Origin: a virus
Direction: 5' to 3' (one strand)
Virus record (IMG/VR): IMGVR_UViG_3300034418_000621
Location: 1-24,265 of that record
Length of the DNA: 24,265 bases
Part shown: piece after piece, positions 1 through 23,944 of the stretch
Layout: the number at the start of each line of letters is the position of its first letter
Position numbering within the stretch: the stretch's first letter is position 1
Made by a program: the position numbers and the translations under genes
Notes under the pieces: generated by a model
Database searches by the model: none
What the model was told of the DNA's origin: nothing
The model's input: the letters and a program-made list of their open reading frames with translations, nothing else

Positions 1-3000
1 AGTGAATCTTGAAACCTCTAAATCTGAACGAAGATTTTTCCTGAAGTTTATATACTCGTCTTGTAAATCTATAGGGACTTTTTTATAAGCATCGCCTGCG
101 GGCATGAAGAGTTTGTCGGTAATCTGCACATCGGCTTCATCGAAGATTACATAATTGTAGTCCAATTTATCTAATTGTTCTTGTAGATATTTTTCGGCTT
201 CTGCTTTAGTATCAAAGTGTTTTCCTTTAGAATTATAGTCATCTCCTTTGACCATGTATTTACCTGAAACTGTTTGGGATGGTGGAGTAATCTTAAAGGT
301 AGCTTGATTTCGGGATGAACCATCTAAATATTTGATGCCTGGTATGCCGGCTTCTTTTAATCGCCTAGAGATTTCAGGCTCGGGTACATTCTCTAGAGCG
401 TTGTCAGTAATATCCCGATAATCCAGGTCTTTACGATATTCCCACAGGTCTTCACCTTCTAATTCGGTTAGTACCTTTCTGAGCTTATCTTGTATGTCCT
501 TTGTCTGTTCGCCTAATGTCTTATCATATAGCAGATACTCGTTCTCCTTCGGGGCGAGTTCGACTTTGTAGAGGGAGCCTTTGTTTAATGATTTGGAAAG
601 TAGCTCCTCGTTTAATTTATCCAACTGCTTTTGAGCTTTATCAACTTCTGACTCAAGTTTTTTGATTACAGCTTCAGGAGGAAACTCTGTTCTTATTGTA
701 AGTTCTCCAGTATTCTCATCAGTTATAAAATTACTAGCGGCTTCATCATATGCCTCTTGTGCTTTTATAACATCGTCCTGAGCTTTATCTAATAGCGGTG
801 AATATTTTTCGTAAACCCCATCAGGATATTTTACGCCATGTTGCCTAGTAAGCATATCCCTATAATGCTCCGCCACTTCCTTCTTCCCCGCAAAGTAAAG
901 CCCATGCCCATAGGCCTGCGCGCCCTCGCCCGTACCGATTGCCGATGTCCTGAACTTGCCGAAGGGCGCGCCAGGCTCGGGGGCAAAGGTGTGCGGTGTG
1001 CCGTGGTAGGCGGGGATGAATAGCTTGTCGGCTTCACTCCTTCCAGGCATAAGGTTACGCCTGATACGATCAATAACGATGTTTCGGGTGTTGCCGGTAG
1101 GATTAAGTGTTCCTATCCGATCCAATCTGCGAGAGCGGTATGTCCCTAATGTGTTTGCCCGTCTCTCACCGAGATTCGATAGGGTTGGATTGTCTGCGAT
1201 CTGACTTTTACTTACGGGACCAAAGGCGGCATTTAAGAAGTTTTTCTGCCCTTCGGTAATTCCACTTTCAGGAGTACCATTAACTATGCCTTTGGCATGA
1301 TTATCGAGGTACTTCTCGAACATGGATTCGAAGTTTTTTCGAATTACTGCTGGGTCTGATCCGCCAAACGCCTGTCCGATTTCATTTCCTCTTCGCTTCA
1401 GCAGGTAGTCGATATTCTTCTGTAGCTTGTCGAGGGATACAGTATCTAAGATAACATTTCCGTCTTTGGTAATCGTAATGCCATAAACCAAGCTATCGCG
1501 ATATCCGCCTTTTAGCGTCTTGTATTTCCTGCCTCCCTTGCCGGTAGCCGCATAGTAGAATAGTAGCATCTGATTACCGATGCCATCCCTACCCGCTTTG
1601 CTGGCTTCCCGTAGAAAGTTTATCTGCGATGGGTTGTAACGACCTGTCCTGGATAGTTCATCGATAATTGAATCATCTATGAACTTGCCGGAGCCTGTAA
1701 GTTTTCCGTCCTCAGTTTCGGACAGAGTGACATGACCTTCAGGGAGATCGTTTTCTCGAGCCTTTATGGATTCGGTCAAATCTCTGGCGAGTGCCTGGTT
1801 TGCTCTTCTTGTCTCTGATGGAGAATAGACTTCGGGCTTTTTGGTGATTGGGTTGACAATGATGTTGCCATCTTTGTCGGTCTTAAAGTGTCCACCATTG
1901 TTAAATACCTGCAAGCTCTCAATCGGATCACTGGGTGAAACTATTACTGTATCTAATTCATCGTCTTTAGTGACTGGGCGTTGTTCGCGAATCTCCGATT
2001 CCGATAAGCCGATTGTCTCATCTTCATACCGCTTGACCAGGTTATCCAATTGTTTGGATGTCTTAAATGGTTTACCGAGTATGCCGGTTCCCTGAACAAG
2101 AGATCCATCCGCCTTGGTGGCCATACCTAGTGAATGCATAGCTTTACGCATAAAGCCTCCACTGGTGATGCGATCACCCAGGCTTTCGATTAGCTTATAA
2201 GTGGATGACTGCCCTGCCCGTTTCGATGTTTTGCCGGATAACATTCTTTCGGCCACAGTCTCAGCAAATAGTTCCCGTGCAAACTGCTCGGGTGTTTCAT
2301 ATGCCTGCTTTGCTTTTTCCGAAACATTGGAGTTGGCAAGTTTATCGACATAAGCCTTTTGAAGTTCCCTAAATTCATCGGTGAGTTCGTAATGTTTCAT
2401 ACCATTCTCATCGGTAGTAATCTTGGGCTTACCTGTGGATTTATCTATCTCGGTAAATATTCCGACTTTTCCCTTCTCGGGATTACCAAGCATCTCCTCA
2501 AGGATGTTAGGCAGTAGTCCATGCCTTTCAATATGGTGGCCGATTTCATGTGAAAGGATAGTGCCGTAAGATAAATTGGTATCGGTATTTATTTCGATTA
2601 CACTATCAGAACCATCTACATAATGTGCTCCATTCGGTCCATCCTTCCCCATCGATTTCATTCTAATCTCAACATCGGGGAAGAATTGAGAGAAGGTAGA
2701 TATTGCTACCTGTTGATCCTTGTCCAGCTTTTCAAAATTTGCCCGCTCTGTTTCGGTAAGCGATTGCTTGTGGTATTCTAAATCTCCCAACTGTTTGGCA
2801 AGCAGATCGGATTTATTATTGAACCTCAAAAGAGATCCATAACCTAATCCGGCGGCTATAAATGGAGCCGATGCTCCGATTGCAGATGCCGCACCCTCTT
2901 CGCCTCCAGCCATGTATCCAAATGCACCAGGCAATGCCGCCCCTCCTGCCGCCGCTTTGGCGACATTGGCGGTTTCTGTGCCTAGTCTGCCTAGTCCTGA

Positions 3001-4434
3001 TCTATCGATAAACCTGGCGACTCCTCTTACAGTGGATGGAAGGTCACGGGTTTGAGTGAGTATAGGTTTTAACTGTGAAGCGGCATCTCCGAGTACCAGG
3101 TTATCAGTCCTATCGACTAATACCTCGGCAAGTTTTGGATCGTCTGCCGGTAATGCCCCTACCCTTTTAAAGAATGGCATGGTGGTCTCGGCCATAGTTA
3201 ACTGTTTGCCGAGGATCGCTGTGCTTCGTCCCATGCTGGCGATTGCCCGTGGACCCATGTAGGCGGCCAATGCTCCAAAGCCTGTGCCGGTTAAACTAGC
3301 TTCCCCATCTGTGAGGTCAGCGGCTCCACCGATTGATGTATAAATAACCCCCTTGGCTACCTGTTCACTAAGCCCGGCTCGCATTAATAAGGTAGTCGCT
3401 TCCTCCACGCCTGCCCTGCGAATAAACTCAGTAAGATTACCAAAGTGCTCACCCGCTTTACCGACTGCCTGCATACCCTTGCCGACCATTTGATTGGTAA
3501 ACCCAGCCTTTGCCTTCTGCTCAGTAAATGGAGTAATCTTTGCGAGTATTTCATCCGATTCCTTTGTCGCCTTTTCGAGTGCATCGGTGGCAGTCTTTAC
3601 GAGTTTGTCAGATGCATTGGCTGGTAATCGATTGAGTTGCTTTTCAAGTAAAAATTTCTTGCTGTTTGCTTCCTTGAATTGCTCGGCTAACTTCTTTGCG
3701 GTTCCCCGGCGTAGCATATTAGTGGTGGATCGAATACTTCCAGTGGTTACAGCGGCCACAGGATTTTCCAGCTGTACGAATAAAGATGCCGCTAGTGCCT
3801 GTTTCTTATCAGGCTCAACTCTACCGGCTTTAAGATCTCTATACATATCGAAATCTCCAAACTGCTCGGCCATGATTGCCGCCCCATCATCTATAAACGA
3901 CTGAGTCTTCATCATGTCGCCAATAAACTGAATGGAGGCATCTATATCCTCATCCCCTTCACCTACTATTTTGGAGAATGCAAGTTTACCGGCATCTCCG
4001 ATAGTTTTATATCCTGCGAAGACTTCGGCCATTGTTTGGTAGCCTGTTGCCTTTCTTTTGCGTCTTCTTTTCTGCTGTTCTGCTCGAGCACCCTCGACTA
4101 GCTTTTGACTGCCAGGGACTCCGTAAGTCATAGCACCTGAAGCGGTAAAATCTAAACTGACCTCTTTCGATATATCACCGAGTCCCTCCATGACTTCACC
4201 GGCGGCCTGTTTAAATGCATCGTATAAACCAGTGTCAGATTCCTGGTCGAAGTAACCATTCTTATAGGCGGCTCGAGCTAGTTCCCTATTACCATCTTCG
4301 AATGCTTTGATCATCCGATCAGGTGGAACTACCTGTTTAAGAATCTGAAAAGTGGATTCTGCGTTTGGAGCCTCCGGCCCCTCGACCATAAAATCTACTC
4401 CGAGGGGTTCGCTGAATATTCTATACTGTCCCAT
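1..4434 (-). CDS. Giant polyvalent virion protein, zinc metalloprotease plus ADP-ribosyltransferase (3' end outside window)
   Basis: An uninterrupted frame of 1478 codons runs from ATG at 4434 to the window edge, so the C-terminus is missing. The start overlaps the upstream stop (TAATG). Residues 1-600 are mostly helical, with a Gly/Ala-rich hydrophobic stretch near 490-535 that could insert in a membrane. HEIGHH at 629-634 is a zincin HExxH site (H629, E630, H633). A later ELFAE segment (E721, E725) could give the third zinc ligand. From about 1143 comes an ADP-ribosyltransferase domain of the polyvalent-protein type: YHGTPH (1143-1148), IGTGEGAQAYGHGLYFA (Y1180), LYKVELAP, GIPGIKYLDGSSR (1363-1375) and YNYVIFDE (E1433). 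Such proteins are known as multi-domain phage proteins that enter the host with DNA. As the last gene of the structural block it is probably an ejected internal protein. The domain calls are firm; activity and targets are unknown. Confidence 0.85.
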   Translation of the reverse strand, partial: MGQYRIFSEPLGVDFMVEGPEAPNAESTFQILKQVVPPDRMIKAFEDGNRELARAAYKNGYFDQESDTGLYDAFKQAAGEVMEGLGDISKEVSLDFTASGAMTYGVPGSQKLVEGARAEQQKRRRKRKATGYQTMAEVFAGYKTIGDAGKLAFSKIVGEGDEDIDASIQFIGDMMKTQSFIDDGAAIMAEQFGDFDMYRDLKAGRVEPDKKQALAASLFVQLENPVAAVTTGSIRSTTNMLRRGTAKKLAEQFKEANSKKFLLEKQLNRLPANASDKLVKTATDALEKATKESDEILAKITPFTEQKAKAGFTNQMVGKGMQAVGKAGEHFGNLTEFIRRAGVEEATTLLMRAGLSEQVAKGVIYTSIGGAADLTDGEASLTGTGFGALAAYMGPRAIASMGRSTAILGKQLTMAETTMPFFKRVGALPADDPKLAEVLVDRTDNLVLGDAASQLKPILTQTRDLPSTVRGVARFIDRSGLGRLGTETANVAKAAAGGAALPGAFGYMAGGEEGAASAIGASAPFIAAGLGYGSLLRFNNKSDLLAKQLGDLEYHKQSLTETERANFEKLDKDQQVAISTFSQFFPDVEIRMKSMGKDGPNGAHYVDGSDSVIEINTDTNLSYGTILSHEIGHHIERHGLLPNILEEMLGNPEKGKVGIFTEIDKSTGKPKITTDENGMKHYELTDEFRELQKAYVDKLANSNVSEKAKQAYETPEQFARELFAETVAERMLSGKTSKRAGQSSTYKLIESLGDRITSGGFMRKAMHSLGMATKADGSLVQGTGILGKPFKTSKQLDNLVKRYEDETIGLSESEIREQRPVTKDDELDTVIVSPSDPIESLQVFNNGGHFKTDKDGNIIVNPITKKPEVYSPSETRRANQALARDLTESIKARENDLPEGHVTLSETEDGKLTGSGKFIDDSIIDELSRTGRYNPSQINFLREASKAGRDGIGNQMLLFYYAATGKGGRKYKTLKGGYRDSLVYGITITKDGNVILDTVSLDKLQKNIDYLLKRRGNEIGQAFGGSDPAVIRKNFESMFEKYLDNHAKGIVNGTPESGITEGQKNFLNAAFGPVSKSQIADNPTLSNLGERRANTLGTYRSRRLDRIGTLNPTGNTRNIVIDRIRRNLMPGRSEADKLFIPAYHGTPHTFAPEPGAPFGKFRTSAIGTGEGAQAYGHGLYFAGKKEVAEHYRDMLTRQHGVKYPDGVYEKYSPLLDKAQDDVIKAQEAYDEAASNFITDENTGELTIRTEFPPEAVIKKLESEVDKAQKQLDKLNEELLSKSLNKGSLYKVELAPKENEYLLYDKTLGEQTKDIQDKLRKVLTELEGEDLWEYRKDLDYRDITDNALENVPEPEISRRLKEAGIPGIKYLDGSSRNQATFKITPPSQTVSGKYMVKGDDYNSKGKHFDTKAEAEKYLQEQLDKLDYNYVIFDEADVQITDKLFMPAGDAYKKVPIDLQDEYINFRKNLRSDLEVSRFT
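880..1020. other. GC-rich island inside the ADP-ribosyltransferase coding region
   Basis: Bases 901-1010 contain 76 G or C out of 110 (69%), while the flanking coding sequence is clearly AT-richer. The island covers the first conserved block of the ADP-ribosyltransferase domain, from just before YHGTPH to GHGLYFA. The reading frame is intact through it. Confidence 0.8.
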
Positions 4435-5630
4435 TACTGAGCCTCTACCGATAATCCTGGTATACTGTAAGTTCCCTGCTTGGTATCTATCCCTGGTCCT
4501 TGAGGCTGTGACGGGCTTAATTCTTCTTCAATTTGCAAATAGTTTGATGGAATAATTTGATCCACCCTCAAACCACTATTTGCCGCTAGACCTTTATACT
4601 GATCAAGAGCCTCTCTTGCTCCTTTAAATTCAGCTGATGCGGCATTTTTTGATTGGTTAAGAAAATCTTGTCTCTGATCGGGCGAAAGTCTCGTACCATC
4701 TATGATCTGATTATAAAGGTTTCTGATTTTAGTATCTATGCCACCAGCATTTTGTGCATTAGCAAACTCTCCCTCCCTGACAACACTGCCAGGATCAAGT
4801 ATCTTCATGTAATTAAAAATCAAACTCAAATCGCCTGCTGGAGAAGGGTTTGCACCGGCTTGTTTGACCTTTTCGTATGCAGTACGAACTTTGTTGAAAT
4901 CCTTAACAACTGGCAAAGCGTTAAACTCTTTCCGTAAATCTCCTTCGGCTTTTCGAAGAGTTTCAAAATCTTCCATGCCAGCAGTTGCTTGTTCTGCCAA
5001 CCTCTTTTGTTCAGCCTGCATAAATGCCAAAGCTCTTTCTTGAACAGCAGGAGATTCGTTTGCAAATTGAGCCATAAACCGATTGCCGGACATTCCCATA
5101 ACAGGCTCAGTCTGTTGGAGATTAGGATCTTGAAGTAATTCGTCTCTAAACTTTTCCTGTGCTTCAGGACCAGGTGCTAAGAATAGTGAACCTCTTTCTA
5201 ATTCATCTTGCCCAGCCTCGTTTAATTTACCAGTAGGAGCTTGAGAAGTAAGCATGGTAATAAACCTATCTCTGCCAGCCTTCTGCTCATCGAGCATAGC
5301 TTGCTGACGATCAAATGCCTGCTTACGCATGAGGAACTCCTGTGCTCTAAAATCGCTTAAATCCTTATTTCTTTTAGCCTCAATAAGAGTAGGATTTTTC
5401 GACATCGAGTTAATCAAATCAGGGGGAGCATCAGGATAAATTCTTTCGAGACCCTGCCTCAAATTTTCAACCTCTTTCTGTTTCGCTTTTTTATCGAAAT
5501 AACTTTTTGCCACTGAGCCAATCGCATCACCGAATGCCTGGTTAGCCCTTGCCTGTGCCTCGCCTGCTCTTTGAAATGCTGAGAAGTCCATCCTCCCCAA
5601 GCCTGCCTGTACTGTGTCGCCTATTGCCAT
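4434..5630 (-). CDS. Helical, Gln-rich protein; probable internal or ejection protein
   Basis: 398 residues, no family recognised. The first 130 residues are charged and helix-prone, rich in Lys, Gln and Ala (for example AFDRQQAMLDEQKAG), and most of the rest also looks helical. There is no signal peptide or clear membrane segment. It lies between another helical protein and the giant polyvalent protein, where short-tailed phages encode inner-core or ejected proteins, so that role is inferred from position and composition. The ATG at 5630 has no nearby Shine-Dalgarno: the only good one (AGGAGG, 5652-5657) is 21 bases upstream. ATG at 5591 (residue 14), directly preceded by GGGGAGG, is an alternative start. 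The stop overlaps the next start (TAATG). Confidence 0.7.
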   Translation of the reverse strand: MAIGDTVQAGLGRMDFSAFQRAGEAQARANQAFGDAIGSVAKSYFDKKAKQKEVENLRQGLERIYPDAPPDLINSMSKNPTLIEAKRNKDLSDFRAQEFLMRKQAFDRQQAMLDEQKAGRDRFITMLTSQAPTGKLNEAGQDELERGSLFLAPGPEAQEKFRDELLQDPNLQQTEPVMGMSGNRFMAQFANESPAVQERALAFMQAEQKRLAEQATAGMEDFETLRKAEGDLRKEFNALPVVKDFNKVRTAYEKVKQAGANPSPAGDLSLIFNYMKILDPGSVVREGEFANAQNAGGIDTKIRNLYNQIIDGTRLSPDQRQDFLNQSKNAASAEFKGAREALDQYKGLAANSGLRVDQIIPSNYLQIEEELSPSQPQGPGIDTKQGTYSIPGLSVEAQ

Positions 5631-5740: not shown

Positions 5741-6784
5741 CTAACCTGCGGCCATAATATTTGCCGCACCAATTGTACCGATTGCCCCCAACAATCCACC
5801 TACCATTCCACCTGCGGCCTGTTCGCGAGCCGCATAGGTGTTTGCCAGGTAGTTCGCACGATTCGCTGTGTCCTGTAATCCGATATTTACTCCGGCATCA
5901 GGATTGATCCTGGTTGACTGCTCCTGTGGTAATCCAAACAAGGCCGCTCTTGCTCCGTATCCCTGTTGAGTATAATCAGCACCACCACGAAGCATCATTA
6001 ATGGGTCTGCTGATGTCGCGCGATTCATTGCACTTGCCATGCCTCCTAAACCTTGTGCCTGTTGTAAAGCTTCATTACGAAGTTCTCTAAGATAATCCTC
6101 ACGACTCATTGCTTCAGCAACAAGTCCAATATTGTCGAAATCTCTACCGCGAGCGACAAGACCTTCCCTTGCCGATTGAGTCGCCCGTCTTCTCATCTCA
6201 GGTGACAAGTCCTGAATCTGAGACTCTCTGAATGCCTGATCGGCCAACTGATTAGCCTGCTCCACGCGAGCCTGCATAAGCGGATCGGACGAACGAACTG
6301 CCTCCGTCATACCGGGGCCAAATCTTTCTATTAAAGATATATCACTACCCGCCTGACGACCCGCCATCTGACCACCAAACTCCTGTGCCCTCATTGCCTG
6401 TTCTTCGGCAAGCTGTGCCATCGGATCAGCGGCTCGTTGGGCGAGGCTCATCTGTAAGTCTTGATACTGAGGATCGTAGGTCTGACGAGTCTGTAGTAAC
6501 TGCTCTTGCAAGCGAGGGTCTGCCATTGCAGATACATAATCGCGAGCCGATTTACCAACATCTAGTTTAGGCAAGGGAGGTGGTTTCTTTCCTCCACCAA
6601 AAAGCTTCTGTAAGAAATAAGATGGAACGCCTGAACTGTTTACAGGCTCACCTGCTCCACCGGCATCTTTAAGCATCTTTGCTTCTGCTGAATTGATGTA
6701 GGCGAGTGACTCACCTTCGGGAGCATTCTCATTTAAAAGCCTAGCGGCCTGTGCCAATGGATCTTTTGTTTTGTTTTTCATCAT
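5741..6784 (-). CDS. Helical virion-type protein with hydrophobic Gly/Ala-rich C-terminus
   Basis: 347 residues, no named family recognised. The N-terminal 75 residues are polar with a Pro/Lys-rich linker (GGGKKPPPLPKLD). The middle is helical and rich in Gln, Arg, Met and Ala, and the last 23 residues form a Gly/Ala/Ile-rich hydrophobic segment (MVGGLLGAIGTIGAANIMAAG). A helical protein with a membrane-active tail, encoded after the nozzle and tail fibre, fits an internal core or ejection protein; this is inferred from position. There are two consecutive ATG starts (6784 and 6781). The TAG stop is followed by 34 open codons in the same frame, so the functional product may be about 382 residues. 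Confidence 0.7.
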   Translation of the reverse strand: MMKNKTKDPLAQAARLLNENAPEGESLAYINSAEAKMLKDAGGAGEPVNSSGVPSYFLQKLFGGGKKPPPLPKLDVGKSARDYVSAMADPRLQEQLLQTRQTYDPQYQDLQMSLAQRAADPMAQLAEEQAMRAQEFGGQMAGRQAGSDISLIERFGPGMTEAVRSSDPLMQARVEQANQLADQAFRESQIQDLSPEMRRRATQSAREGLVARGRDFDNIGLVAEAMSREDYLRELRNEALQQAQGLGGMASAMNRATSADPLMMLRGGADYTQQGYGARAALFGLPQEQSTRINPDAGVNIGLQDTANRANYLANTYAAREQAAGGMVGGLLGAIGTIGAANIMAAG

Positions 6785-6789
6785 GGCGA

Positions 6790-7557
6790 TTAAGTCTTAA
6801 TTATATAATTTAAAATGATGGTTGGCTGAACATTGTTGTGTGGTTGATCGCCACCTGTACTACCCGAATTAACATTTTGACGAGCTACAGCAGTAGTGCT
6901 ATCCCCTACTCCTCTAGCTGCTGGCCCTGAAGATGATTCACTGTAAGTGTGCGTATGTGAAGGCATTTCGGATGTTGTGAGGGTATGTGTCTCAGCCCCA
7001 CCTGTAGCTCCAAGGTTATCACCATTGACCCCACCTGATTGACCTGTCAATCGGTCAGCAGAAGTACCTCCCATGTCATCCTGACCTGCAATAACTCGTC
7101 CGCGAAGGTCGGGGATATTAAATGTGGTTGAACCATCTCCTGCGCCATAGGTTTCGTCAATTATATCAAATAAATCCGAGTATGTGCTTCTTGATATTGC
7201 GTCACCATCACAGAATAAATATCCTGTTGGTGCGTTAATGCCTGCAAAAGGTAAAACTGTACCTGTGGGCATTAACGCAGATATTGCATCGGAATTTAAT
7301 TTTGCAGATGTTACTGCTCCATCGACTATTTTAGTAGCGGTGACCGAGTCGGAGGCGAGTTCGTTGGAGGTGATACCTCCTGATGGTACTTTTAGTTTAC
7401 CATCGCCACCGCTGATTCCATAGGTTTGACTATTTACGATGATAGTAGAACCATCTGCGGGGTCATCGAATGTCGCGAGGTCTGCGATATCCATTAATTT
7501 CTGTGAGGTGACTTGGTCACCTGATGAAAAGATTTGTCCTGTATTTAATATTGGCAT
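6790..7557 (-). CDS. Short tail fibre with phage tail collar domain
   Basis: 255 residues. Residues 60-95 carry short fibre-type repeats (ITSNELASDSVTATKIVDG, then AVTSAKL). Residues 96-155 are a classic phage tail collar domain: PTGTVLPFAG, then GYLFCDGDAISRSTYSDLF, then FNIPDLRGRVIAG. The end has the usual ETHTLTTSEMPSHTH and QPHNNVQPTIILNYIIK motifs of collar and microcystin-dependent-like proteins. Such proteins form trimeric distal fibre parts that contact the host. The Shine-Dalgarno AGGAG overlaps the TAG stop of the nozzle gene. Unusually, this gene is in the same frame as that upstream gene. Confidence 0.9.
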   Translation of the reverse strand: MPILNTGQIFSSGDQVTSQKLMDIADLATFDDPADGSTIIVNSQTYGISGGDGKLKVPSGGITSNELASDSVTATKIVDGAVTSAKLNSDAISALMPTGTVLPFAGINAPTGYLFCDGDAISRSTYSDLFDIIDETYGAGDGSTTFNIPDLRGRVIAGQDDMGGTSADRLTGQSGGVNGDNLGATGGAETHTLTTSEMPSHTHTYSESSSGPAARGVGDSTTAVARQNVNSGSTGGDQPHNNVQPTIILNYIIKT

Positions 7558-7569
7558 TTTTTCTATCTC

Positions 7570-10350
7570 CTATTGAAAGACTGAAGTGGTTGATCGATCC
7601 GATATTCTAGCATCTACCTTGGTTGCCCTGACATAAGGTCTACCGACAAATGGTTTAATATCTGCCTGTATGCCAAACCCTCTTCTGTTAACTCGTAAGC
7701 GAACCGAGGCATCCTCCGCAGTTTCAAGCTCACTACCTAGTAGCGTAGATATGCTTGAAATCTCGGAAGTAGAGTCAGGATCTTCCGTGATAAATTGTAC
7801 AGTAGCATCAGATGGGTTGACTTCGCTTGATTTAAGTTGCAATTCTGCACGACTGAATGTTTTTCGATCCATCGTGTCGGCATCGTATTGTCTAGTGATT
7901 AATTGACTGACCACAGGGATACCGGGGTCTACTTCAGGTGATTGTCCTGCTTTCCGTAAGACCTTATCATCTCCATCCATGGAATCTACCTTATGTACGC
8001 CACCTTCTTCTGTTGTGAGGTAAAGTGCATTCTGCGATCCCTCGCGAGCTACTAATAATTCTCGGATCGCAAAGTCTGTAGAGTTTACGGTATCGATGCT
8101 CTCAAAGCCTTGGTTGATGAAATTATAAACGATGATCGTATTTAGTTTATTACCATCCCCTTTTCCCACGCTAGAGTCCAATGGTAGTGCTAACCAATAG
8201 CGGTTATTAAAATAAACTCCGCATGATAGGTGGGCAAAGTCCTGATTTATGCGATCAATGAATGGCTGAATAGTTTCTGATATTGGTGTACCTGTACCAC
8301 GCAAGTTATACTCATCTATAAATTGTACACTGTATATCCCTTGGTCAGATAGAAATAAAATCTGATTAGCCACCTGAATAATAGACTTTCTCGCAGATGC
8401 TCCGACCTCGTCTGTAACCATAGTTGTTTTAACATCTGCCAAAGATCCACTCGCACCTGTAATCAGATGAATAGATTTACGATTGAATACCACCACCGAA
8501 TCCTGTGTAAAACCTTTAATTCCTACTACAAAATCGCTTTTACCTGATGAAATGCGAAACTGATTTCCAATCTCATCAAATGTGTCAGAGTCTAGAATGT
8601 CTGATGCCAAAATTTCATCACGAATACCTCTATCGACAGGTGGTGATGCAGATGAGTATTGATAGGGTAACCATAGTCTACGCTGATGAAATTCACCGAA
8701 TGGAGCCGCAGGTTGGTGGATGAATCCTTTACCAAGTGCTAGTGGTTTACTGACTGTTAAGGAGTGATTGGCATCATCTTTGACTCCAAGATTAAAAGTA
8801 AATTGGTTGACTGTAGGAACGCTTGTGACCACCACTTCCGACCCAATAAAATTATCATATATCGTAGATTGTGAAGTATGTATGGTAAGTCTGTCACCTA
8901 CCGCTAATCCATGTGAAGTTACATCCATAGTAACCACACCACTTACTGACGCTGTACTAGAATCTGTCAAGTAAGCAGGTGCAGTGTATGCCCCACTATC
9001 CACCCTCTCAAAATCCTCAAAATATTCTATCTGTGCGCCACTAACATTAAATGTCTTTGTCTGTGACTCAGTCATAGTGACTGTTAACTGTGTGGATGAT
9101 GGAATACTTGCTACTTGATAACAGTCATTCGGATCATACTCCCAATTACCTAGTCGTGTTAATGTCACAAAGTCGCCCACTGAACGATTATGATTAGATA
9201 CTGTGTCTATCGTGATCGTCTGCCCTGACTGAGAGCCTGAAGTAATAGCTACACGATTAAGAACAGGACTTGCGGATAATGTAGTCTTGTTAGTTCTAAA
9301 GATATACATATTATCGAACCCCTGAGTCATTCCGCATGGTGCATCCACAGTTTCACCACCTTGCTCGTATCTACACTTATAGAGCTTTGAGTCTTTAAGT
9401 CTTACGATTGAACAAAGGTTATTTGTGGCTGAGAAAATGAAGTCATCGTTCTCACTTGTTGCATCAGAAAATACCGCACTCCCATAAACTCCATTTACTG
9501 CATCGTCTTCCAAAGTAAAATTCTCAGTAGTCGATGCCACTGATGTCTGACCGACATTGGGACTATTAACTGTAAAAGTAGTATCTGCCCCTGTATCGGC
9601 AAAGCTTACTGTTTTGGCAGATGTGTTAATTGCTGTGATTGTATGACTGCCATTTATCGATGCATCGATATCATCGACATGGACTGTACCACTTACTGCA
9701 AACTCTGAGGCCGGAGTGTCTTCAAGCGTTAGAGTTACCACATTACTCGCTCTCGATGCCTCAGTGACCACATAATTAAGAGTAGTAGGAATCGCATTAC
9801 CCATTGAGGCAACAGATGTTCTTCCTTCGATATTATACTCAGTCCATTTTTTTGTCAGGTTCGAGTAAGTTGTTCTAATCGTTGACCAAGTCTGTGATGA
9901 CCCAACTACTGTAAAAACTTCATTCGTGCCTGAGTCGGCATAAGTAATTGTGCGAGTATTAAAGTTTACACTAGCTAGAGGAAATGTTCCGTTTGGATCG
10001 TCACCTGTAAACTTTAAACCATTGATCGTTACATTATCTCCAACGATAAAAGCTAAACTTGGAGTTTCATCCAATACGACAGTTACCACATTACTTGATC
10101 GTGATGCGGATAGAATTACATATGGTAAAGTAATCGCATCATCTCCTGTTGTGATAGTGCCAAATAGAGTAGACATCCCTTTGCGTGGTTGCCAAGTTCC
10201 ATCGTCATTCATCCGACCATTCTTCGACAGTGCAACCTCACCGGGTTTTAACTGATTAGGTCGCAATCGGGCATTCATCCGCAGAAAGAAGGTGTCACCC
10301 TCTACCACGAATGGATCGTCTAGTTTGCCGTATGATCGATATCTGCTCAC
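7570..10350 (-). CDS. Tail nozzle / DNA-stabilisation-like protein with four inserted beta repeats
   Basis: 926 residues starting at GTG (10350), supported by AGGAG eight bases upstream and a GTGA overlap with the preceding stop. The N-terminus (LKPGEVALSKNGRMNDDGTW then RKG) and the core around 550-760 (FHQRRLWLP, DSVVVFNRKSIHLITG, QILFLSDQGIYSV, NNRYWLALP) resemble beta-propeller nozzle or stabilisation proteins that close the short tail (P22 gp10 or T7 gp12 role). Four related beta modules sit at about 83-148, 198-262, 368-437 and 464-530; the first two are clearly homologous (SRSSNVVTVVLDETP versus SRASNVVTLTLEDTP). Family assignment is by resemblance. The length exceeds P22 gp10 (472 residues), and the extra modules explain much of this. 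It ends in TAG. Confidence 0.72.
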   Translation of the reverse strand: MSRYRSYGKLDDPFVVEGDTFFLRMNARLRPNQLKPGEVALSKNGRMNDDGTWQPRKGMSTLFGTITTGDDAITLPYVILSASRSSNVVTVVLDETPSLAFIVGDNVTINGLKFTGDDPNGTFPLASVNFNTRTITYADSGTNEVFTVVGSSQTWSTIRTTYSNLTKKWTEYNIEGRTSVASMGNAIPTTLNYVVTEASRASNVVTLTLEDTPASEFAVSGTVHVDDIDASINGSHTITAINTSAKTVSFADTGADTTFTVNSPNVGQTSVASTTENFTLEDDAVNGVYGSAVFSDATSENDDFIFSATNNLCSIVRLKDSKLYKCRYEQGGETVDAPCGMTQGFDNMYIFRTNKTTLSASPVLNRVAITSGSQSGQTITIDTVSNHNRSVGDFVTLTRLGNWEYDPNDCYQVASIPSSTQLTVTMTESQTKTFNVSGAQIEYFEDFERVDSGAYTAPAYLTDSSTASVSGVVTMDVTSHGLAVGDRLTIHTSQSTIYDNFIGSEVVVTSVPTVNQFTFNLGVKDDANHSLTVSKPLALGKGFIHQPAAPFGEFHQRRLWLPYQYSSASPPVDRGIRDEILASDILDSDTFDEIGNQFRISSGKSDFVVGIKGFTQDSVVVFNRKSIHLITGASGSLADVKTTMVTDEVGASARKSIIQVANQILFLSDQGIYSVQFIDEYNLRGTGTPISETIQPFIDRINQDFAHLSCGVYFNNRYWLALPLDSSVGKGDGNKLNTIIVYNFINQGFESIDTVNSTDFAIRELLVAREGSQNALYLTTEEGGVHKVDSMDGDDKVLRKAGQSPEVDPGIPVVSQLITRQYDADTMDRKTFSRAELQLKSSEVNPSDATVQFITEDPDSTSEISSISTLLGSELETAEDASVRLRVNRRGFGIQADIKPFVGRPYVRATKVDARISDRSTTSVFQ

Positions 10351-13132: not shown

Positions 13133-13867
13133 TTAAGAGGGTACTGTGGTTGAAAAGGTTGGACCGTTAGTAAGAGTACCGTCGTTACCTCCGCTTCCTT
13201 GATCGGTAATAGTCGTACCTGTACCGCCATCATTGTCGCCCATACGCCACCAAGCAACAGGCGAGTACGAAGATAAGTCAGCAGGTACACCACTGTTGTA
13301 GATAGATGTTATATCAGATGCGGATAAAACAGAATTAAATACAGCTACCTCATCAATCAGACCGTTTAAATAGTTATTATTTCCTCCGTCCGATCCGATT
13401 TTAATGTCTAGAGTACTGGTAGAGGGCGTACCCGTCCGAGTATGTGTTCCAGCCGAACTTCCGTTAACATAAAAAGTAATACCTCTAGAGGCAGAACGAG
13501 TAACAGCTAGATGATACCAAGTTCCCGTGCTTAATGTTGTCGAGGAGAATGAAGGTGCACCCCCGGTTCCTGTGTCAAAAAAAGCAACCTTATTTGAACT
13601 TGAATAAAACTGATGTCCGCTAGTGCCATTATATCCGTCAAAATAATTTCCGATAGCATAAATCATAGGAAAGCCGCTTAAAGAATCAAACTTTACCCAA
13701 GATGTTATCGACAAAGCACCTGTAATATCTAAAGAGCTATCGTAAGAGATGGCTACATTGTCATTAGTTCCATCAAAGTCTACGCTGTAGGTGTTACTAA
13801 AACCTGCACCACCGCCTGATGGGGGTAGAGTATGGCCGAGTTGAACCCCTAATCCTAGAAAAGGCAT
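13133..13867 (-). CDS. LamG-type concanavalin A-like lectin, putative adhesin
   Basis: 244 residues. Residues about 27-190 form a LamG / concanavalin A-like fold: YSVDFDGTNDNVAISYDSSL, then ALSITSWVKF, TWYHLAVTRS, ITFYVNG and LNGLIDEVAVFNSVLSASDI. The C-terminal part (SPVAWWRMGDNDG, then GNDGTLTNGPTFS) is often found attached to this domain in environmental phage proteins. The N-terminal 24 residues are Gly/Pro-rich and probably link to the virion. LamG domains bind glycans, so a host-surface or particle-binding adhesin is the best guess. Nothing in the sequence suggests hydrolase activity. Confidence 0.85.
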   Translation of the reverse strand: MPFLGLGVQLGHTLPPSGGGAGFSNTYSVDFDGTNDNVAISYDSSLDITGALSITSWVKFDSLSGFPMIYAIGNYFDGYNGTSGHQFYSSSNKVAFFDTGTGGAPSFSSTTLSTGTWYHLAVTRSASRGITFYVNGSSAGTHTRTGTPSTSTLDIKIGSDGGNNNYLNGLIDEVAVFNSVLSASDITSIYNSGVPADLSSYSPVAWWRMGDNDGGTGTTITDQGSGGNDGTLTNGPTFSTTVPS

Positions 13868-15910: not shown

Positions 15911-16939
15911 TTAAACGATTGATCCCAAGGCTCTAGGATTACCTACACGAAGCGTAAGCATTGCCTCAGTGAAAGCTCTTTTGCCGGCTCCATTGTCAGG
16001 AAGATCCACTACGGAAATGCCTTCAAGAAACTTGAGGGAAACAGTGTCATCGTCAGGAATCAAGTAAGCACGATCTGTGTTTACTGTTCCTTCTGCTGTG
16101 TCAGGACTGGAAGCCGATCCATTCACACGACCCAAGAAAAGGTCAGGAATGATATCGATAGAGCCAAAATCGCTGACATAATGAAGAACTGAATTAACCA
16201 AGGTTTTTCCGCTTACATCTTGAGTGAAGCTGTAAACAGGATTGTTGGTAACTGCGGCACGGGTGTAGTCAGTAATGGCGTTCATTACTGCTGGACCAGC
16301 GTACAATTTGTAAGAACCTTTAGCACCACTTGCAGTATAAACAGCTTGCAGTAATCCACGAAAAGCAGACTCAGTCAATGAACCAAGAGATACGCGAGAT
16401 CCGCTTACAGCACGAAATGCTTGTTTAGCACTTGTATCGAAAGTATTTCCGGTCGCACTCGGATTTGACCAAGTCCCTAACCCGCAGAGGGTAGCTCCAG
16501 CGGAAGAAGTTCCGGCGGCTTGATCGTTTCCTGAAGCGATAGCAGTTTCGATTGAGCGTTTAAGCTGAATTAAACTTTTTGCTTTGGAAGCGTTGAATAA
16601 TCCACCTTGTCCACCAGGAGCGACATCAATCATCTCAGCCTGACGCGAGACGGAGAATATATCTCTGATGGTTTGGACTCGGTTACCAAGTCTTGCTCTT
16701 GAGTCGATCAAGTTAGCGGCATCGGAGATCGTGAGATCAACACCGTCAATTACTCCTCCAATCTCGGGGTCTAAAAGTGAGTCTACCAACCACTCATTGA
16801 GAGTAGCCTTTGGAGCCTCGGATTGTGAGAGAGTAGAATACAGAGGTGTTTCAGTAGGCTCTACGGTTTTCAGAAGTGATTCTAAATTTTCGCGAGCACC
16901 CTTAGCACTTGTTACATTGTATGAAGTAGCAATAGCCAT
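15911..16939 (-). CDS. Major capsid protein, SU10/DUF5309-like
   Basis: 342 residues. The N-terminal block (ARENLESLLKTVEPTETPLY, then STLSQSEAPKATLNEWLVDSL) is the typical start of SU10-type major capsid proteins (DUF5309), an HK97-fold family in short- and long-tailed phages. Later parts (RSIETAIASGNDQAAGTSSA, LQAVYTASGAKGSYKLYAGP, and YLIPDDDTVSLKFLEGISVV) fit the same fold. Flanking scaffold and strong terminator support the call. The start has AAGGA about ten bases upstream. The C-terminus is intact, with no frameshift extension seen. Confidence 0.9.
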   Translation of the reverse strand: MAIATSYNVTSAKGARENLESLLKTVEPTETPLYSTLSQSEAPKATLNEWLVDSLLDPEIGGVIDGVDLTISDAANLIDSRARLGNRVQTIRDIFSVSRQAEMIDVAPGGQGGLFNASKAKSLIQLKRSIETAIASGNDQAAGTSSAGATLCGLGTWSNPSATGNTFDTSAKQAFRAVSGSRVSLGSLTESAFRGLLQAVYTASGAKGSYKLYAGPAVMNAITDYTRAAVTNNPVYSFTQDVSGKTLVNSVLHYVSDFGSIDIIPDLFLGRVNGSASSPDTAEGTVNTDRAYLIPDDDTVSLKFLEGISVVDLPDNGAGKRAFTEAMLTLRVGNPRALGSIV

Positions 16940-19259: not shown

Positions 19260-19538
19260 TTACCACTTCACCTTATTTGCCCAGTAAGCCGCCGAAGTTT
19301 TACCTTTGGCTATATTCTTACCATGACGAGATTTGAACGATGCTCGCTTTTTCTTCATCGCCTGACTCTCACCTGTTTTTGGTTTACCGGCAGTCTTTGC
19401 ACCCTGTTGTCCGAATCTAATCATCCGATCCTTGCCTCCGTCTTTTATTAAAACGACATGAGATTTTTTCGGATGATTAGGTGTTCGCTTGGGCTTATTA
19501 TAGCCGTCAAACGAAATGCCTCGATAAGTTTTACTCAC
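19260..19538 (-). CDS. Basic small protein
   Basis: 92 residues starting at GTG 19538, which overlaps the preceding TGA (GTGA). It has KSHVVLIKDGGKDRMIRFGQ and then KKKRASFKSRHGKNIAKGKT and SAAYWANKVKW. The last block, a basic helix closed by an aromatic YWANKVKW end, recurs in small phage and giant-virus proteins as I recall. The function is not established; charge and clustering suggest DNA binding or condensation. Only weak purine-rich sequence precedes the GTG, so coupled translation is likely. Confidence 0.68.
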   Translation of the reverse strand: MSKTYRGISFDGYNKPKRTPNHPKKSHVVLIKDGGKDRMIRFGQQGAKTAGKPKTGESQAMKKKRASFKSRHGKNIAKGKTSAAYWANKVKW

Positions 19539-19677: not shown

Positions 19678-21750
19678 TTAAGCGGCCATCGATGTACCTG
19701 GTACATTGCCGGGGGCTGTCCCTAGTTGGCCAATCCTAGCGTTCATTTGTTGCTGTTGCTGAAATTCTAACTGACCAGCATATGTCTGAAGTCTCTTCGC
19801 AAAGTTTTCATCGGATTGCAGGCGTTCCTGCACATCGGTCGCCGGTATCGCTTCACTTCCTTGGATGTACGATTGTAACACTTGAAGCCTAAGTTGTGGA
19901 TTTGCTCCATTTTCAGGGGCGTTAACAACCTGTCCTGATGCGATTTTGGCAATATCGTTAGATGTTTCAATTATCTCCTTTGTGGTAGCCTCCTGAGTCG
20001 GCATGATTAATTCGTTAGCCAAGTTTGGATCGATTGCCTCAATTACTTTTCTAAGATAAATGTCGAACCTGCTTACGCCCTGCCTGTCATACTGCGACAT
20101 TAACTTACCAACCGTATCGAGCTTTTCGATCACCTTGGATTCATCCTGGTTCATCGAGTTCCAGCTAATATTAAAATCATACAACTCAGCAGTTTCGTCC
20201 AAAATTAACTGTGCTCCCTGCTCATTATTTGTAACCCGAAACCAAATCATCGGTCCGCTGTAAGTCCGATCCAAGCACCATACCCGCTTCAAAACTTCCT
20301 TCCATCCACTGAGCCAGCAGTTGACCAAATGCTGTTTTATCACATTTGCCTCCACCGCATCGTCAGGTCCAGTCGCCCGTCCTGTGATGCGATTACATAG
20401 CTGGCGGATTTGCATCTCCACTTCCATGCTTGCTTGCGAATAACGGGGGATTTCCATGAATCCCACCTCTCCCCTACGGCGTACCCCAAGCTGTGCTCCT
20501 GGTCCCAAACGCTCGGGTCGTCTACCGATCTGATATTCCACCGGTGGCATGGTGCTCATCGATGCTCGGTCTCGGCGACTATCCAATTCTGTCTTTACCG
20601 CCAACTCATAACTCTTCAGTAACTCTGGGTATCCGCGAGAGTCCAGTAAACGATGGTTTAAATGCTCTCGCGTGATACACACGAATGGATACCTGCCCTC
20701 GTCATATCCAACCGGCTCATGGAATCCTGCTTCATCCATTTCATCCGTCCAGCAGGTCTTGGTAACAACAGGAACATCATCTTCATCCAACTCCTTGCGA
20801 TAGGTAGTAACTACCCGAATCAAGCCCTCGTAATGCTGATTACCATAGCTTGTGCCATAATCATAATGCATGGCCGAGTCGCTGTATCTCTCCTCGTAAA
20901 AGTCTTTCGCCTTCTCAATCGCTTCATCAATCCAGGCTTCATCCCATCCCTCGTTTACCTTCTGCTTCAATGCTTCAGGAGAATAATAATGAATGCAGTG
21001 AATGCTCCTGGCGGATTCCAAATCGATAACATTGCTGTCCACGATCAGTTCCCTGCCTAACTCATATGCCTTAACCGCCGGACGATTTACGACCACTTTT
21101 TCGGTCGGAATTTCGGTCTCACCATTCTTCCGTAACTCATTAAGCATCTTCTTGACCCTACGCTTTTTGAGCTTTGGAAAGAGGGGATAAAACATTTCCT
21201 CCACTCCCTCCTTCATTTCGGGATCTTCTATCGCCATTGCCAGTTCAGGCGACTGCTGGGCAATCTGCTCGAGGCTGATCGGCTCAAACTTTCTCGCCTT
21301 CTCCTGCTTCCAGTAAGTACCAAAAAAGGTCACCCCGTTCTGTAATAAATAATTCGCTCCTATCGATGACTCCCTCATCAGTTCATCCATCGTACCCATC
21401 CGCCAGCGAAGAAACTCCGTCACCAACTTTGCCGATGCCACATCTCCACTCTCCACGGGAGCCGCCACCAGGTTAGCCTTGGTCAAAGCCTGTGTCAGGG
21501 TGGCAACATCGCCATCGATCAAAGGATTAATGACATTCGGATCAAGGTCACTTGCCCCTGACCAGGGAAATGCTTCAGGTCCACTCTTTTTACCATCACC
21601 CGTCTTGCCTGCCCACTCGTTGAATCGAACCTCCCGAGCATCTTCTGCTTTATCCATCCATGTAGATAAATTTGCTTTTGCCCGCTCAAACTCAAACTTG
21701 AGTTCATCCACATCAGGCTTGTCTTCAAAAATCTGTACTTCGTTCTCCAT
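19678..21750 (-). CDS. Portal protein
   Basis: 690 residues, a usual size for podovirus portals. The N-terminal helical part leads into FPWSGASDLDPNVINPLIDG (61-80), typical of portals, followed by a clip and stem region with WFRVTNNEQG and NISWNSMNQDE and a helical C-terminus with a Gln-rich stretch (EFQQQQQMNAR) that may form the barrel or contact DNA. It assembles as a dodecamer at the capsid vertex and works with the terminase. Order (terminase, two small regulators, portal, then scaffold and capsid) supports the call. Twin ribosome binding sites precede it. Confidence 0.85.
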   Translation of the reverse strand: MENEVQIFEDKPDVDELKFEFERAKANLSTWMDKAEDAREVRFNEWAGKTGDGKKSGPEAFPWSGASDLDPNVINPLIDGDVATLTQALTKANLVAAPVESGDVASAKLVTEFLRWRMGTMDELMRESSIGANYLLQNGVTFFGTYWKQEKARKFEPISLEQIAQQSPELAMAIEDPEMKEGVEEMFYPLFPKLKKRRVKKMLNELRKNGETEIPTEKVVVNRPAVKAYELGRELIVDSNVIDLESARSIHCIHYYSPEALKQKVNEGWDEAWIDEAIEKAKDFYEERYSDSAMHYDYGTSYGNQHYEGLIRVVTTYRKELDEDDVPVVTKTCWTDEMDEAGFHEPVGYDEGRYPFVCITREHLNHRLLDSRGYPELLKSYELAVKTELDSRRDRASMSTMPPVEYQIGRRPERLGPGAQLGVRRRGEVGFMEIPRYSQASMEVEMQIRQLCNRITGRATGPDDAVEANVIKQHLVNCWLSGWKEVLKRVWCLDRTYSGPMIWFRVTNNEQGAQLILDETAELYDFNISWNSMNQDESKVIEKLDTVGKLMSQYDRQGVSRFDIYLRKVIEAIDPNLANELIMPTQEATTKEIIETSNDIAKIASGQVVNAPENGANPQLRLQVLQSYIQGSEAIPATDVQERLQSDENFAKRLQTYAGQLEFQQQQQMNARIGQLGTAPGNVPGTSMAA

Positions 21751-22000: not shown

Positions 22001-22340
22001 CCTCCCCCTCGACTTTTCTAACCAGCACCATGCTCTTGGGTGGATGGTTATCATTTGGCCTCTTAATGCATCTTCCGATCCCCTCCTTATGCTCAAAGTA
22101 TATCAGCATCATCCGAACATTCGGGACCATCTTCAATACCCTCGCCTCCTCAATCTCCACTGTCTTCTTTACCTCCTCGAGCGGGACCACCGGCTTGCTC
22201 TCCTCCTTGTAAATCCGCTGGACAGTTGATCTCGCACATCCTGCCAACTCCGCCACCTTCGGCCAACTCATGCCCGAGTTCCTCGCCAAAACAATCTGCT
22301 GGCGAACGGCTATAGGTATTACCTTATTCTTCTTGCCCAT
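21978..22340 (-). CDS. Helix-turn-helix protein, possible small terminase
   Basis: 120 residues from ATG 22340, which overlaps the large terminase stop (TGATG) and has AGGAGGAGGGAG upstream. The N-terminus is a clear helix-turn-helix (AVRQQIVLARNSGMSWPKVA, then ELAGCARSTVQRIYKEE, residues 11-47), similar to those of small terminases and resolvase-like regulators. The rest contains an acidic helix (PLEEVKKTVEIEEARVLKM) and a beta-rich tail. A DNA-binding protein beside the large terminase is the usual place for the small subunit, although it normally precedes it. A transcription regulator is the alternative. Confidence 0.65.
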   Translation of the reverse strand: MGKKNKVIPIAVRQQIVLARNSGMSWPKVAELAGCARSTVQRIYKEESKPVVPLEEVKKTVEIEEARVLKMVPNVRMMLIYFEHKEGIGRCIKRPNDNHPPKSMVLVRKVEGEDDLYRKA

Positions 22341-23944
22341 CAATAACTCCCTCCTCCTGTTGCGATTAATTCCTCCTCATCGAAGTATTCAAAATTGCCC
22401 ACTGCGAAGTACCTGGCATTATCCACAAAGTCCTTACTCGGACATTTCAACCCGGCACTCGGCTGATATGCCTGCATACAACTAATCAGATTCTGACACT
22501 CATCGCTAAACATCAGCCTGGGCTTATTATCTAAATCCATCGGCTCACTCCGATCCCATGCCAATAAATTATTGATCGCCTGCAATCCCGTCTCGATGTC
22601 CAACGCTTCCGCCGGCTGAACGATAATATCTTCATCCGATAAATCATCTATTATGTTGGAACTTCCCTCCGACTTCTGATAGCTCGCCGATCCCAACCTC
22701 GGGTCGATTATCCGTGTGACCATATTATCCCCGCAGATCGATTCCATCCGCCGGATCTCCTCCGCATAATCCTTTAACCCATACCCATTCGGTTGGGCCG
22801 CCTCGCCGGCACTCAGCTTATCCTTGGTCAGGTCAATCCATCCTCCCCATGTGTCGAAATCAGGAAACTCCTTGACCGCCCATGCTACCCCATGTGCATC
22901 GATTGCAAATAATACCATCGTCCAGGGCTTTGCCCCCGCCGGGTCAATCGATAATACCCAGTTCGCATCCGTAAAATCAGGGAGTTTTTCCGATTGCACA
23001 AAATTCTTGTCCGTCAGATTAGGGAAAATAGCCCTAGACTGCCTCACAGGCACTCCATACGCCCGACAAAGGATCGTTTCCCTCTTTTCCCCCTCCAATT
23101 GATTCTTCATCGCCGCCCATCCGCCAAAGGGGTTGGCCGCTGTATGAAAATACACCACGGAAGACGCTTTGCGGATGGGCTGTTGGACCAGGGGAACCTC
23201 TTCCCCATCCAAAAGATCCGCTTTTGCCGATTCCACTGTCTTCGCTCCCGTAAGCATACTCTTTACCACCGAGTTCCACCCGTCCACGGCCGTGAAACTG
23301 ATAATTCCCTTGGAATTGCGGGTCACGGTGCGAAAACGAAGTGTATTTACCCATGACATCGGAACCAATTCATCTGCCCAGTAGCCGATATTATGGGTTC
23401 CGTTGACTGGCTCCTGCGGTGAGCCGATTTCCCCTCCTTCGATTGTGCTGATGTCCTGTTGCCAAAATCTAAAAATACACTCGGATCGATTAGGGAGTGT
23501 AAATTTAGAGGCAGTGAAGCCATTCCTGAGCGAATACATGACATACCCAATCTTTCCTCTTCCCAAGGATTTAAATTCTTTAGGCAAATACTTAAATATT
23601 AACTTCTGCTGGAATTGAATCGAATTGGCCGAGGTCTCTGTTAAGCACCATATGATCGTGCCGGGGTTTTCAACGAGGGACTGAACTACCCTTTTTGCCG
23701 CCCATTCCGATTTGCCTGCCCTATTCCCTCCCATTACCAAGATTTCCGAGTGAGTCTTTAGCTGTTCGTCTGCCCGCTTCCAGGTATCTAATTCAAAGCC
23801 AAATCTGTAAGGATCACTTTTTTCATCTTTGATCGCTTCCTCACGCCTCTCCCAGTATGCCAAAATATTCTCGGGAGTCATTCCCAGCATCTCCGATTTG
23901 CTGAGGGGCGGAATGGCGGGGTGCGGAGTCCAGTCAAGAGGCAT
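22340..23944 (-). CDS. Terminase large subunit
   Basis: 534 residues. The ATPase half has Walker A GGNRAGKS (72-79) and Walker B IGYWADE (186-192, with D191 and E192). The nuclease half has the conserved acids D334 (LSIDPAG), D414 (IIDPRLG) and a late DFVDNARYFA (D505, D508), the RNase H-like set that cuts packaged DNA. Length fits the family. The protein docks on the portal and drives DNA into the capsid. The ATG at 23944 lacks a Shine-Dalgarno and lies just past a 16-base inverted repeat. ATG at 23881 (residue 22, MTPEN) with GGAG nine bases upstream is an alternative start. Confidence 0.93.
   Translation of the reverse strand: MPLDWTPHPAIPPLSKSEMLGMTPENILAYWERREEAIKDEKSDPYRFGFELDTWKRADEQLKTHSEILVMGGNRAGKSEWAAKRVVQSLVENPGTIIWCLTETSANSIQFQQKLIFKYLPKEFKSLGRGKIGYVMYSLRNGFTASKFTLPNRSECIFRFWQQDISTIEGGEIGSPQEPVNGTHNIGYWADELVPMSWVNTLRFRTVTRNSKGIISFTAVDGWNSVVKSMLTGAKTVESAKADLLDGEEVPLVQQPIRKASSVVYFHTAANPFGGWAAMKNQLEGEKRETILCRAYGVPVRQSRAIFPNLTDKNFVQSEKLPDFTDANWVLSIDPAGAKPWTMVLFAIDAHGVAWAVKEFPDFDTWGGWIDLTKDKLSAGEAAQPNGYGLKDYAEEIRRMESICGDNMVTRIIDPRLGSASYQKSEGSSNIIDDLSDEDIIVQPAEALDIETGLQAINNLLAWDRSEPMDLDNKPRLMFSDECQNLISCMQAYQPSAGLKCPSKDFVDNARYFAVGNFEYFDEEELIATGGGSY

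Follow-up and report, generated by a model that had tools for sequence, protein, structure and literature searches.

The window, by which we mean the whole stretch of DNA analysed, is the complete IMG/VR record IMGVR_UViG_3300034418_000621, a linear fragment of 24,265 bases from an uncultivated tailed phage. From the terminase through to a giant gene at the left end, all genes lie on the minus strand; those that locate the giant gene are the following.

22340-23944, minus strand: terminase.
19678-21750, minus strand: portal-sized gene.
15911-16939, minus strand: SU10-type major capsid protein (Pfam E=3e-37).
7570-10350, minus strand: 926-aa gene.
6790-7557, minus strand: tail collar or short fibre protein (Pfam Collar E=1.3e-21).
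5741-6784, minus strand: 347-aa gene, flanked by the collar gene and the 398-aa gene.
4434-5630, minus strand: 398-aa gene upstream of the giant; matches phrog_13634 (unknown function).
4434 to 1, minus strand: giant polyvalent protein gene; 1478 codons visible from an ATG at 4434, without stops.

The 398-aa gene and the giant overlap by a single base, the former ending on the A of the latter's ATG. The giant frame runs off base 1, where the record ends; it is 3'-truncated and its full length exceeds 1478 codons. Two smaller minus-strand genes of the window also gave matches. The 92-aa protein at 19260-19538 matched phrog_7595 (E=2e-37) and, weakly, part of phrog_220, a minor head protein and DNA pilot (E=5e-4). 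The 244-aa protein at 13133-13867, between the major capsid protein and the tail genes, matched the virion structural protein family phrog_8510 (E=2e-15), and its sequence resembles a LamG/concanavalin-type domain.

An earlier note on this DNA had proposed the giant as an ejected virion protein. Gene order supports the ejection-protein position, both in the window and in two other phages whose annotated tail or internal-virion genes are followed by a similar giant; it is from this position that we infer residence in the virion and ejection. Phage C75C1, the nearest by terminase (32%), was set aside as a counterpart: it has large proteins in the same area, none of which could be aligned to the giant, and HExxH, ADP-ribosyltransferase (ART) and LFMPA are all absent from them.

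The giant frame was divided into the following parts, from N to C terminus.

2956-4434, minus strand: N-terminal backbone, residues 1-493; no known family, conserved in relatives.
2026-2955, minus strand: zincin-like metallopeptidase region, residues 494-803 (alignment, M48 profile match, AF2 model).
2536-2550, minus strand: HEIGH, residues 629-633, by sequence the zinc-binding and catalytic helix; H, E and H invariant (n=23).
2272-2274, minus strand: Glu721, first E of ELFAE, presumed third zinc ligand; invariant in the zincin alignment.
1024-2025, minus strand: post-zincin backbone, residues 804-1137, ending in RRNLMPGRSEADK; common to relatives without the ART up to about residue 1142.
1028-1035, minus strand: 8-base repeat GAAGCCGA, copy 1; putative point of ART-cassette loss in relatives.
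1009-1023, minus strand: seam peptide 1, LFIPA, residues 1138-1142.
112-1008, minus strand: ART cassette, residues 1143-1441, with H1144, Y1180 and D1432.
131-138, minus strand: 8-base repeat GAAGCCGA, copy 2.
97-111, minus strand: seam peptide 2, LFMPA, residues 1442-1446.
1-96, minus strand: start of the next module (GDAYKK...), which is complete in the relative L005.

The zincin-like region includes a conserved Gly/Ala-rich hydrophobic stretch ahead of the zincin. On the minus strand, ELFAE starts at residue 721 (2274-2260), YHGTPH at 1143 (1008-991), GHGLYF at 1176 (909-892) and NYVIFDE at 1427 (156-136). A check of frame and positions confirmed the earlier claim of a single frame of at least 1478 codons with HEIGH, ELFAE and the series from YHGTPH to NYVIFDE, all at the residues given for them; neither the minus-strand location of the gene nor the bracketing of the ART by the pair LFIPA/LFMPA was part of that account. 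Nor are the motifs chance matches, the key residues being invariant in alignments of the zincin (n=23) and of the ART (n=15). Scans of the giant with Pfam, PHROGs and NCBIfam returned almost nothing; matches to Ribosomal_S30AE, DUF2188 and HTH_10 were weak, below the cut-off, and were set aside. Zincin and ART in one frame make this a polyvalent protein, that is, one polypeptide with at least two unrelated enzymatic domains. The pairing of the two, to which the earlier note drew attention, is present here but is not new, having been described for polyvalent proteins of phages and conjugative elements (Iyer et al. 2017, PMC5512222); what is new is the repeated seam peptide with its swappable modules.

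In an alignment of 23 related zincin regions (310 residues, identity as low as 24%), H629, E630, H633, Y695 and E721 were invariant, and the HExxH helix was intact in 44 of 44 further relatives. Compared with solved structures, the profile of this alignment matched an M48 peptidase over the HExxH helix (E=0.0029). The Pfam families M48, M78 and MPTase-PolyVal gave no match in the window at their curated cut-offs; the relative L007 reached E=0.031 with M78 and E=0.044 with M48, both below the Pfam cut-off. An AF2 model has its elements in the expected order, from a helix and three strands through the HExxH helix to hairpin-like strands and, around Glu721, a later helix; its pLDDT is about 70-89 in the core, with a mean of only 60.8. 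Structure matches of the model were weak (Foldseek E >0.05, Z <6), the best PDB matches including Ste24p, IrrE, the lethal factor family and MATCAP. The predicted fold is supportive, short of decisive; it is by sequence, through the invariant HExxH and Glu ligand and the M48 match, that the assignment of this domain as a zincin, as proposed earlier, is well supported.

The ART module from YHGTPH to NYVIFDE is common to many viruses, and H1144, Y1180 and D1432 are invariant in 15 related modules. Pfam PF18760 (ART-PolyVal) did not match the window's ART at the gathering cut-off; 3 of the 15 relatives matched it weakly (best E=2e-5), and others gave weak matches to RES and PARP, families that we take to be ART-like. 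In a profile comparison with clear ART-PolyVal modules the first motifs aligned with E=7e-4, at a probability of only 26%. The residues correspond to those of the Tox-ART-HYD2 type, where H would stand in the first strand, Y in the second and D in the fifth, and an H-Y-D set is what Iyer et al. (PMC5512222) give for ARTs of polyvalent proteins. The ART assignment of the earlier note is supported by this triad and by the Pfam matches of the relatives, whereas the fold prediction failed (the AF2 model of the ART with its flanks has low confidence, pLDDT 50 and pTM 0.29). The window's copy contains an insert of ~45 residues before the last motif (about 300-160, minus strand; TFKITPPSQTVSGKYMVKGDDYNSKGKHFDTKAEAEKYLQ...) that is absent from the other 14 copies; the weak DUF2188 and S30AE matches mentioned above fall within it. 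The ART itself has moved: the window and L030 share ~25% identity over the zincin and 67% over the ART. Plasmid matches to the giant are confined to the ART. One Pseudomonas aeruginosa plasmid (L098) has a frame of 4572 residues in which YHGT-type ART starts number 11 and HEIQH occurs once; it is annotated as an LPD23 domain protein and is without LFMPA.

Thirteen relatives of the giant were found by protein similarity. The complete ones track the window's protein to about residue 1142, with 94-95% identity in L005 and L007 and 79% in L008 and L009, and beyond this point they diverge into variable modules (ART, ART-PolyVal, GNAT, unknown). Complete lengths are 2166 aa in L005 (L006 has the same length and the same ends), 1675 aa in L007 and 1991 aa in L008 and L009. 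L005 carries on from the backbone into the GDAYKK module, whose start is what the window shows at its left edge, then into a GNAT and another ART (ART-PolyVal E=9e-28), and closes with a C-terminal domain; the second ART of L004, L005 and L007 clears the PF18760 cut-off. In L003, L004 and L005 the window's ART is missing and its last residues, EADVQITDKLFMPA, are retained. The DNA of both cassette borders carries GAAGCCGA, and the cassette looks as if it had been deleted between the two repeats. Scars of the form EADVQITDKLFMPA or EADVTVTDKLFMPA, joined at GAAGCCGA, occur in L003, L004, L005, L035 and L055, and with a variant in L046; L035, L055 and L046 have them despite backbones that are only distantly related. 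Some modules appear to be of other kinds: a HicB/RelB-like antitoxin domain lies at residues 1001-1047 of the L087 ORF, directly behind an LYMPA seam, and at residues 590-616 of the L047 ORF, with scores below cut-off (Pfam HicB E=0.003, NCBIfam RelB/ParD E=0.0004).

The seams between modules are marked by LFMPA or near variants, in the form (D/N)K-LFMPA both before and after modules. Motifs of this type occur 83 times in 45 giant ORFs, against a mean of 0.4 (maximum 3) in shuffled sequences. None was found in the 18,833 residues before HExxH, compared with 60 in the 34,507 residues after it. The motifs lie outside recognised domains, in several proteins ~43 residues before and ~7 after the ART-PolyVal match. 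A DNA-pattern scan of viral contigs for DKLFMPA only, with no requirement for homology, retrieved mostly giant ORFs with an upstream HExxH, often with an ART downstream. Bias from choosing sequences by the motif was removed with four single-sequence scans that used zincin regions only: 32 of 33 ORFs chosen in this way and having at least 600 aa after HExxH contained the motif, the sole exception (L220) having AFIPK at that seam, and the other ORFs of these loci had none in 106,333 residues. A literature search for LFMPA and for phage polyprotein cleavage motifs, its scope excluding subscription papers and preprints, returned nothing relevant.

Across its 77 distinct contexts the motif is preceded by 30 unrelated 10-mers and followed by 29 unrelated ones, and its synonymous codons vary (Pro 1.80 of 1.99 bits, Ala 1.43 of 1.95, Leu 1.66 of 2.52). 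With contexts so unrelated and codons so varied, the peptide is under stronger selection than the DNA that encodes it. It could be supposed instead that LFMPA has no function of its own and is a remnant that travels with modules, kept as a recombination point. Cassettes do come and go, leaving the scars at GAAGCCGA described above, and some codon bias (CTC, GCC) is left at the motif; but the Pro and Phe codons are nearly as free as background, the neighbours on both sides are unrelated, and backbones with no more than 24-37% identity still retain the peptide. We consider this explanation distinctly improbable. The peptide might also serve as a short docking motif, for head loading, a chaperone or tail threading, with nothing being cut. 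Conservation of a hydrophobic peptide outside recognised domains would agree with docking, as would the hydrophobic-aromatic-x-Pro pattern retained by the variants. One copy per seam and none before the zincin, however, is more than the loading of a single chain needs, and other families have different seam peptides; docking is unlikely in our judgement.

The explanation that we prefer, tentatively and at somewhat less than even confidence, is that the giant is an ejected effector polyprotein in which LFMPA is a processing site, the protein's own zincin is the likeliest protease, and the modules are freed. What the sequence itself shows is the domains, the seam peptides and their statistics, and that cassettes have been gained and lost. 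The backbone (residues 1 to ~1137), which carries the zincin, would probably have its role in packaging and in entry into the cell. It would be followed by an array of interchangeable effector modules, of which the first here is the H-Y-D ART. The (D/N)K-LFMPA peptides before and after modules would be sites of proteolytic processing, cut most likely by the zincin of the same chain during or after ejection, and the modules would be released as separate enzymes that act on host targets. A hydrophobic site such as LF/FM would match what gluzincins generally prefer to cut. Release of the transferase by the protease had been raised earlier as an alternative, and it is the one that the seam evidence favours. 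The first proposal of that note was instead an ordinary polyvalent protein, in which zincin and ART are independent host-directed effectors on one chain; although many polyvalent proteins have been described so (PMC5512222), it leaves the repeated seam peptide unaccounted for, and we give it very little credence. Processing of polyvalent proteins by such metallopeptidases, whether ahead of packaging or once injected, has been proposed (Iyer et al., PMC5512222), and phage P1 DdrB is processed before packaging (PMC5512222). The N4 virion RNA polymerase, which also has an MPTase, is packaged uncut (PMC5512222), which counts against reading LFMPA as a site of self-processing.

The main counter-evidence comes from one lineage (L023, L029, L094), in which EELGHH replaces HELGHH and the first zinc-binding His is lost, yet the LFMPA/LYMPA copies are kept; this weakens the case for cleavage in cis. 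Possible reasons are that Glu can take over as ligand, that the His was lost only recently, or that the cutting falls to a different protease. On the last of these, the seams would be cut by a host cytoplasmic protease or another phage protein, and the zincin would itself be an effector against host proteins. Some unrelated polyvalent proteins point the same way, L136, L160 and L163 having repeated seam peptides of their own and no HExxH in the stretch seen. Against this, motif and zincin occur together in 32 of the 33 zincin-chosen ORFs, with the motif only behind the zincin, and family scans of the genes in the window, which is part of a genome, named no second protease. We regard a separate protease as unlikely.

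Several known systems resemble the polyprotein proposed here. Bacterial polymorphic toxins also have a conserved front and exchangeable C-terminal enzyme modules; they usually carry one toxin tip at a time and use a secreted delivery system, unlike the giant family, in which a virion-type backbone is followed by several modules in succession. Phage T4 Alt differs in being a single-enzyme protein that is cut by a separate serine prohead protease, and we know of no array with repeated seams in P1 DdrB. Alt nevertheless shares the ART, and is packaged and injected with DNA (PMC5512222). DdrB is, like the giant, a polyvalent protein with an MPTase, but a single processed product has been reported for it (PMC5512222). 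The polyvalent proteins as a class also resemble it: they combine many unrelated enzyme domains per chain, are encoded with late or virion genes, include zincin and Tox-ART-HYD2 domains, and have been suggested to undergo autoprocessing (Iyer et al. 2017, PMC5512222). In the text of that paper, as searched, no repeated seam peptide was found and no processing site is named; 'linker' is absent from it, and 'cleavage site' appears only in a reference on another protein. The virion RNA polymerases of Roseovarius Plymouth podovirus 1 (RPP1) and N4-like phages are likewise giant late proteins with HExxH, and with an ART in RPP1; the giant differs from them in its module array and in being without a recognised RNA polymerase, and no LFMP-type motif was found in those checked.

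LFMPA was also absent from zincin plus ART polyvalent proteins of other lineages (L015, L017, L096, L098), some families having repeated peptides of their own in varied contexts. An ILFQ-type peptide occurs four times in a Rhodobacteraceae phage (L017), [ED]x[YF][NH]Q is repeated some ten times in Synergistaceae elements (L116, L122, L130), and RFSRP occurs six times in L160, with RFSV in L136 and NTA[LF]S in L163. The idea that every ART-PolyVal protein repeats its own tail was rejected: the count was 31 against 10.8 expected, with 467 against 383 in a random 3-mer control, a modest excess driven by few proteins. A de novo repeat statistic at a threshold of 7 was passed by 23 of 90 ART giants, 2 of 90 shuffles and 1 of 49 controls; it is noisy, some of the passing repeats being ART motifs (YHGT, GIPG) rather than seams. 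Repeated seam peptides outside the LFMPA lineage are a partial generalisation, a lead and not a law. It is possible, if doubtful at present, that phages more widely carry self-cleaving effector polyproteins in which an injected zincin cuts a lineage-specific seam (LFMPA; ILFQ, [ED]x[YF][NH]Q, RFSRP or RFSV), any module bearing that seam can be inserted, and the protease co-evolves with its seam.

The autoprocessing proposal of 2017 had no known site, and LFMPA supplies an exact and testable candidate. The peptide also provides a simple rule for dividing giant phage proteins into effector modules, many of which have no match among known families, and the seams suggest how phages may swap injected effectors quickly.
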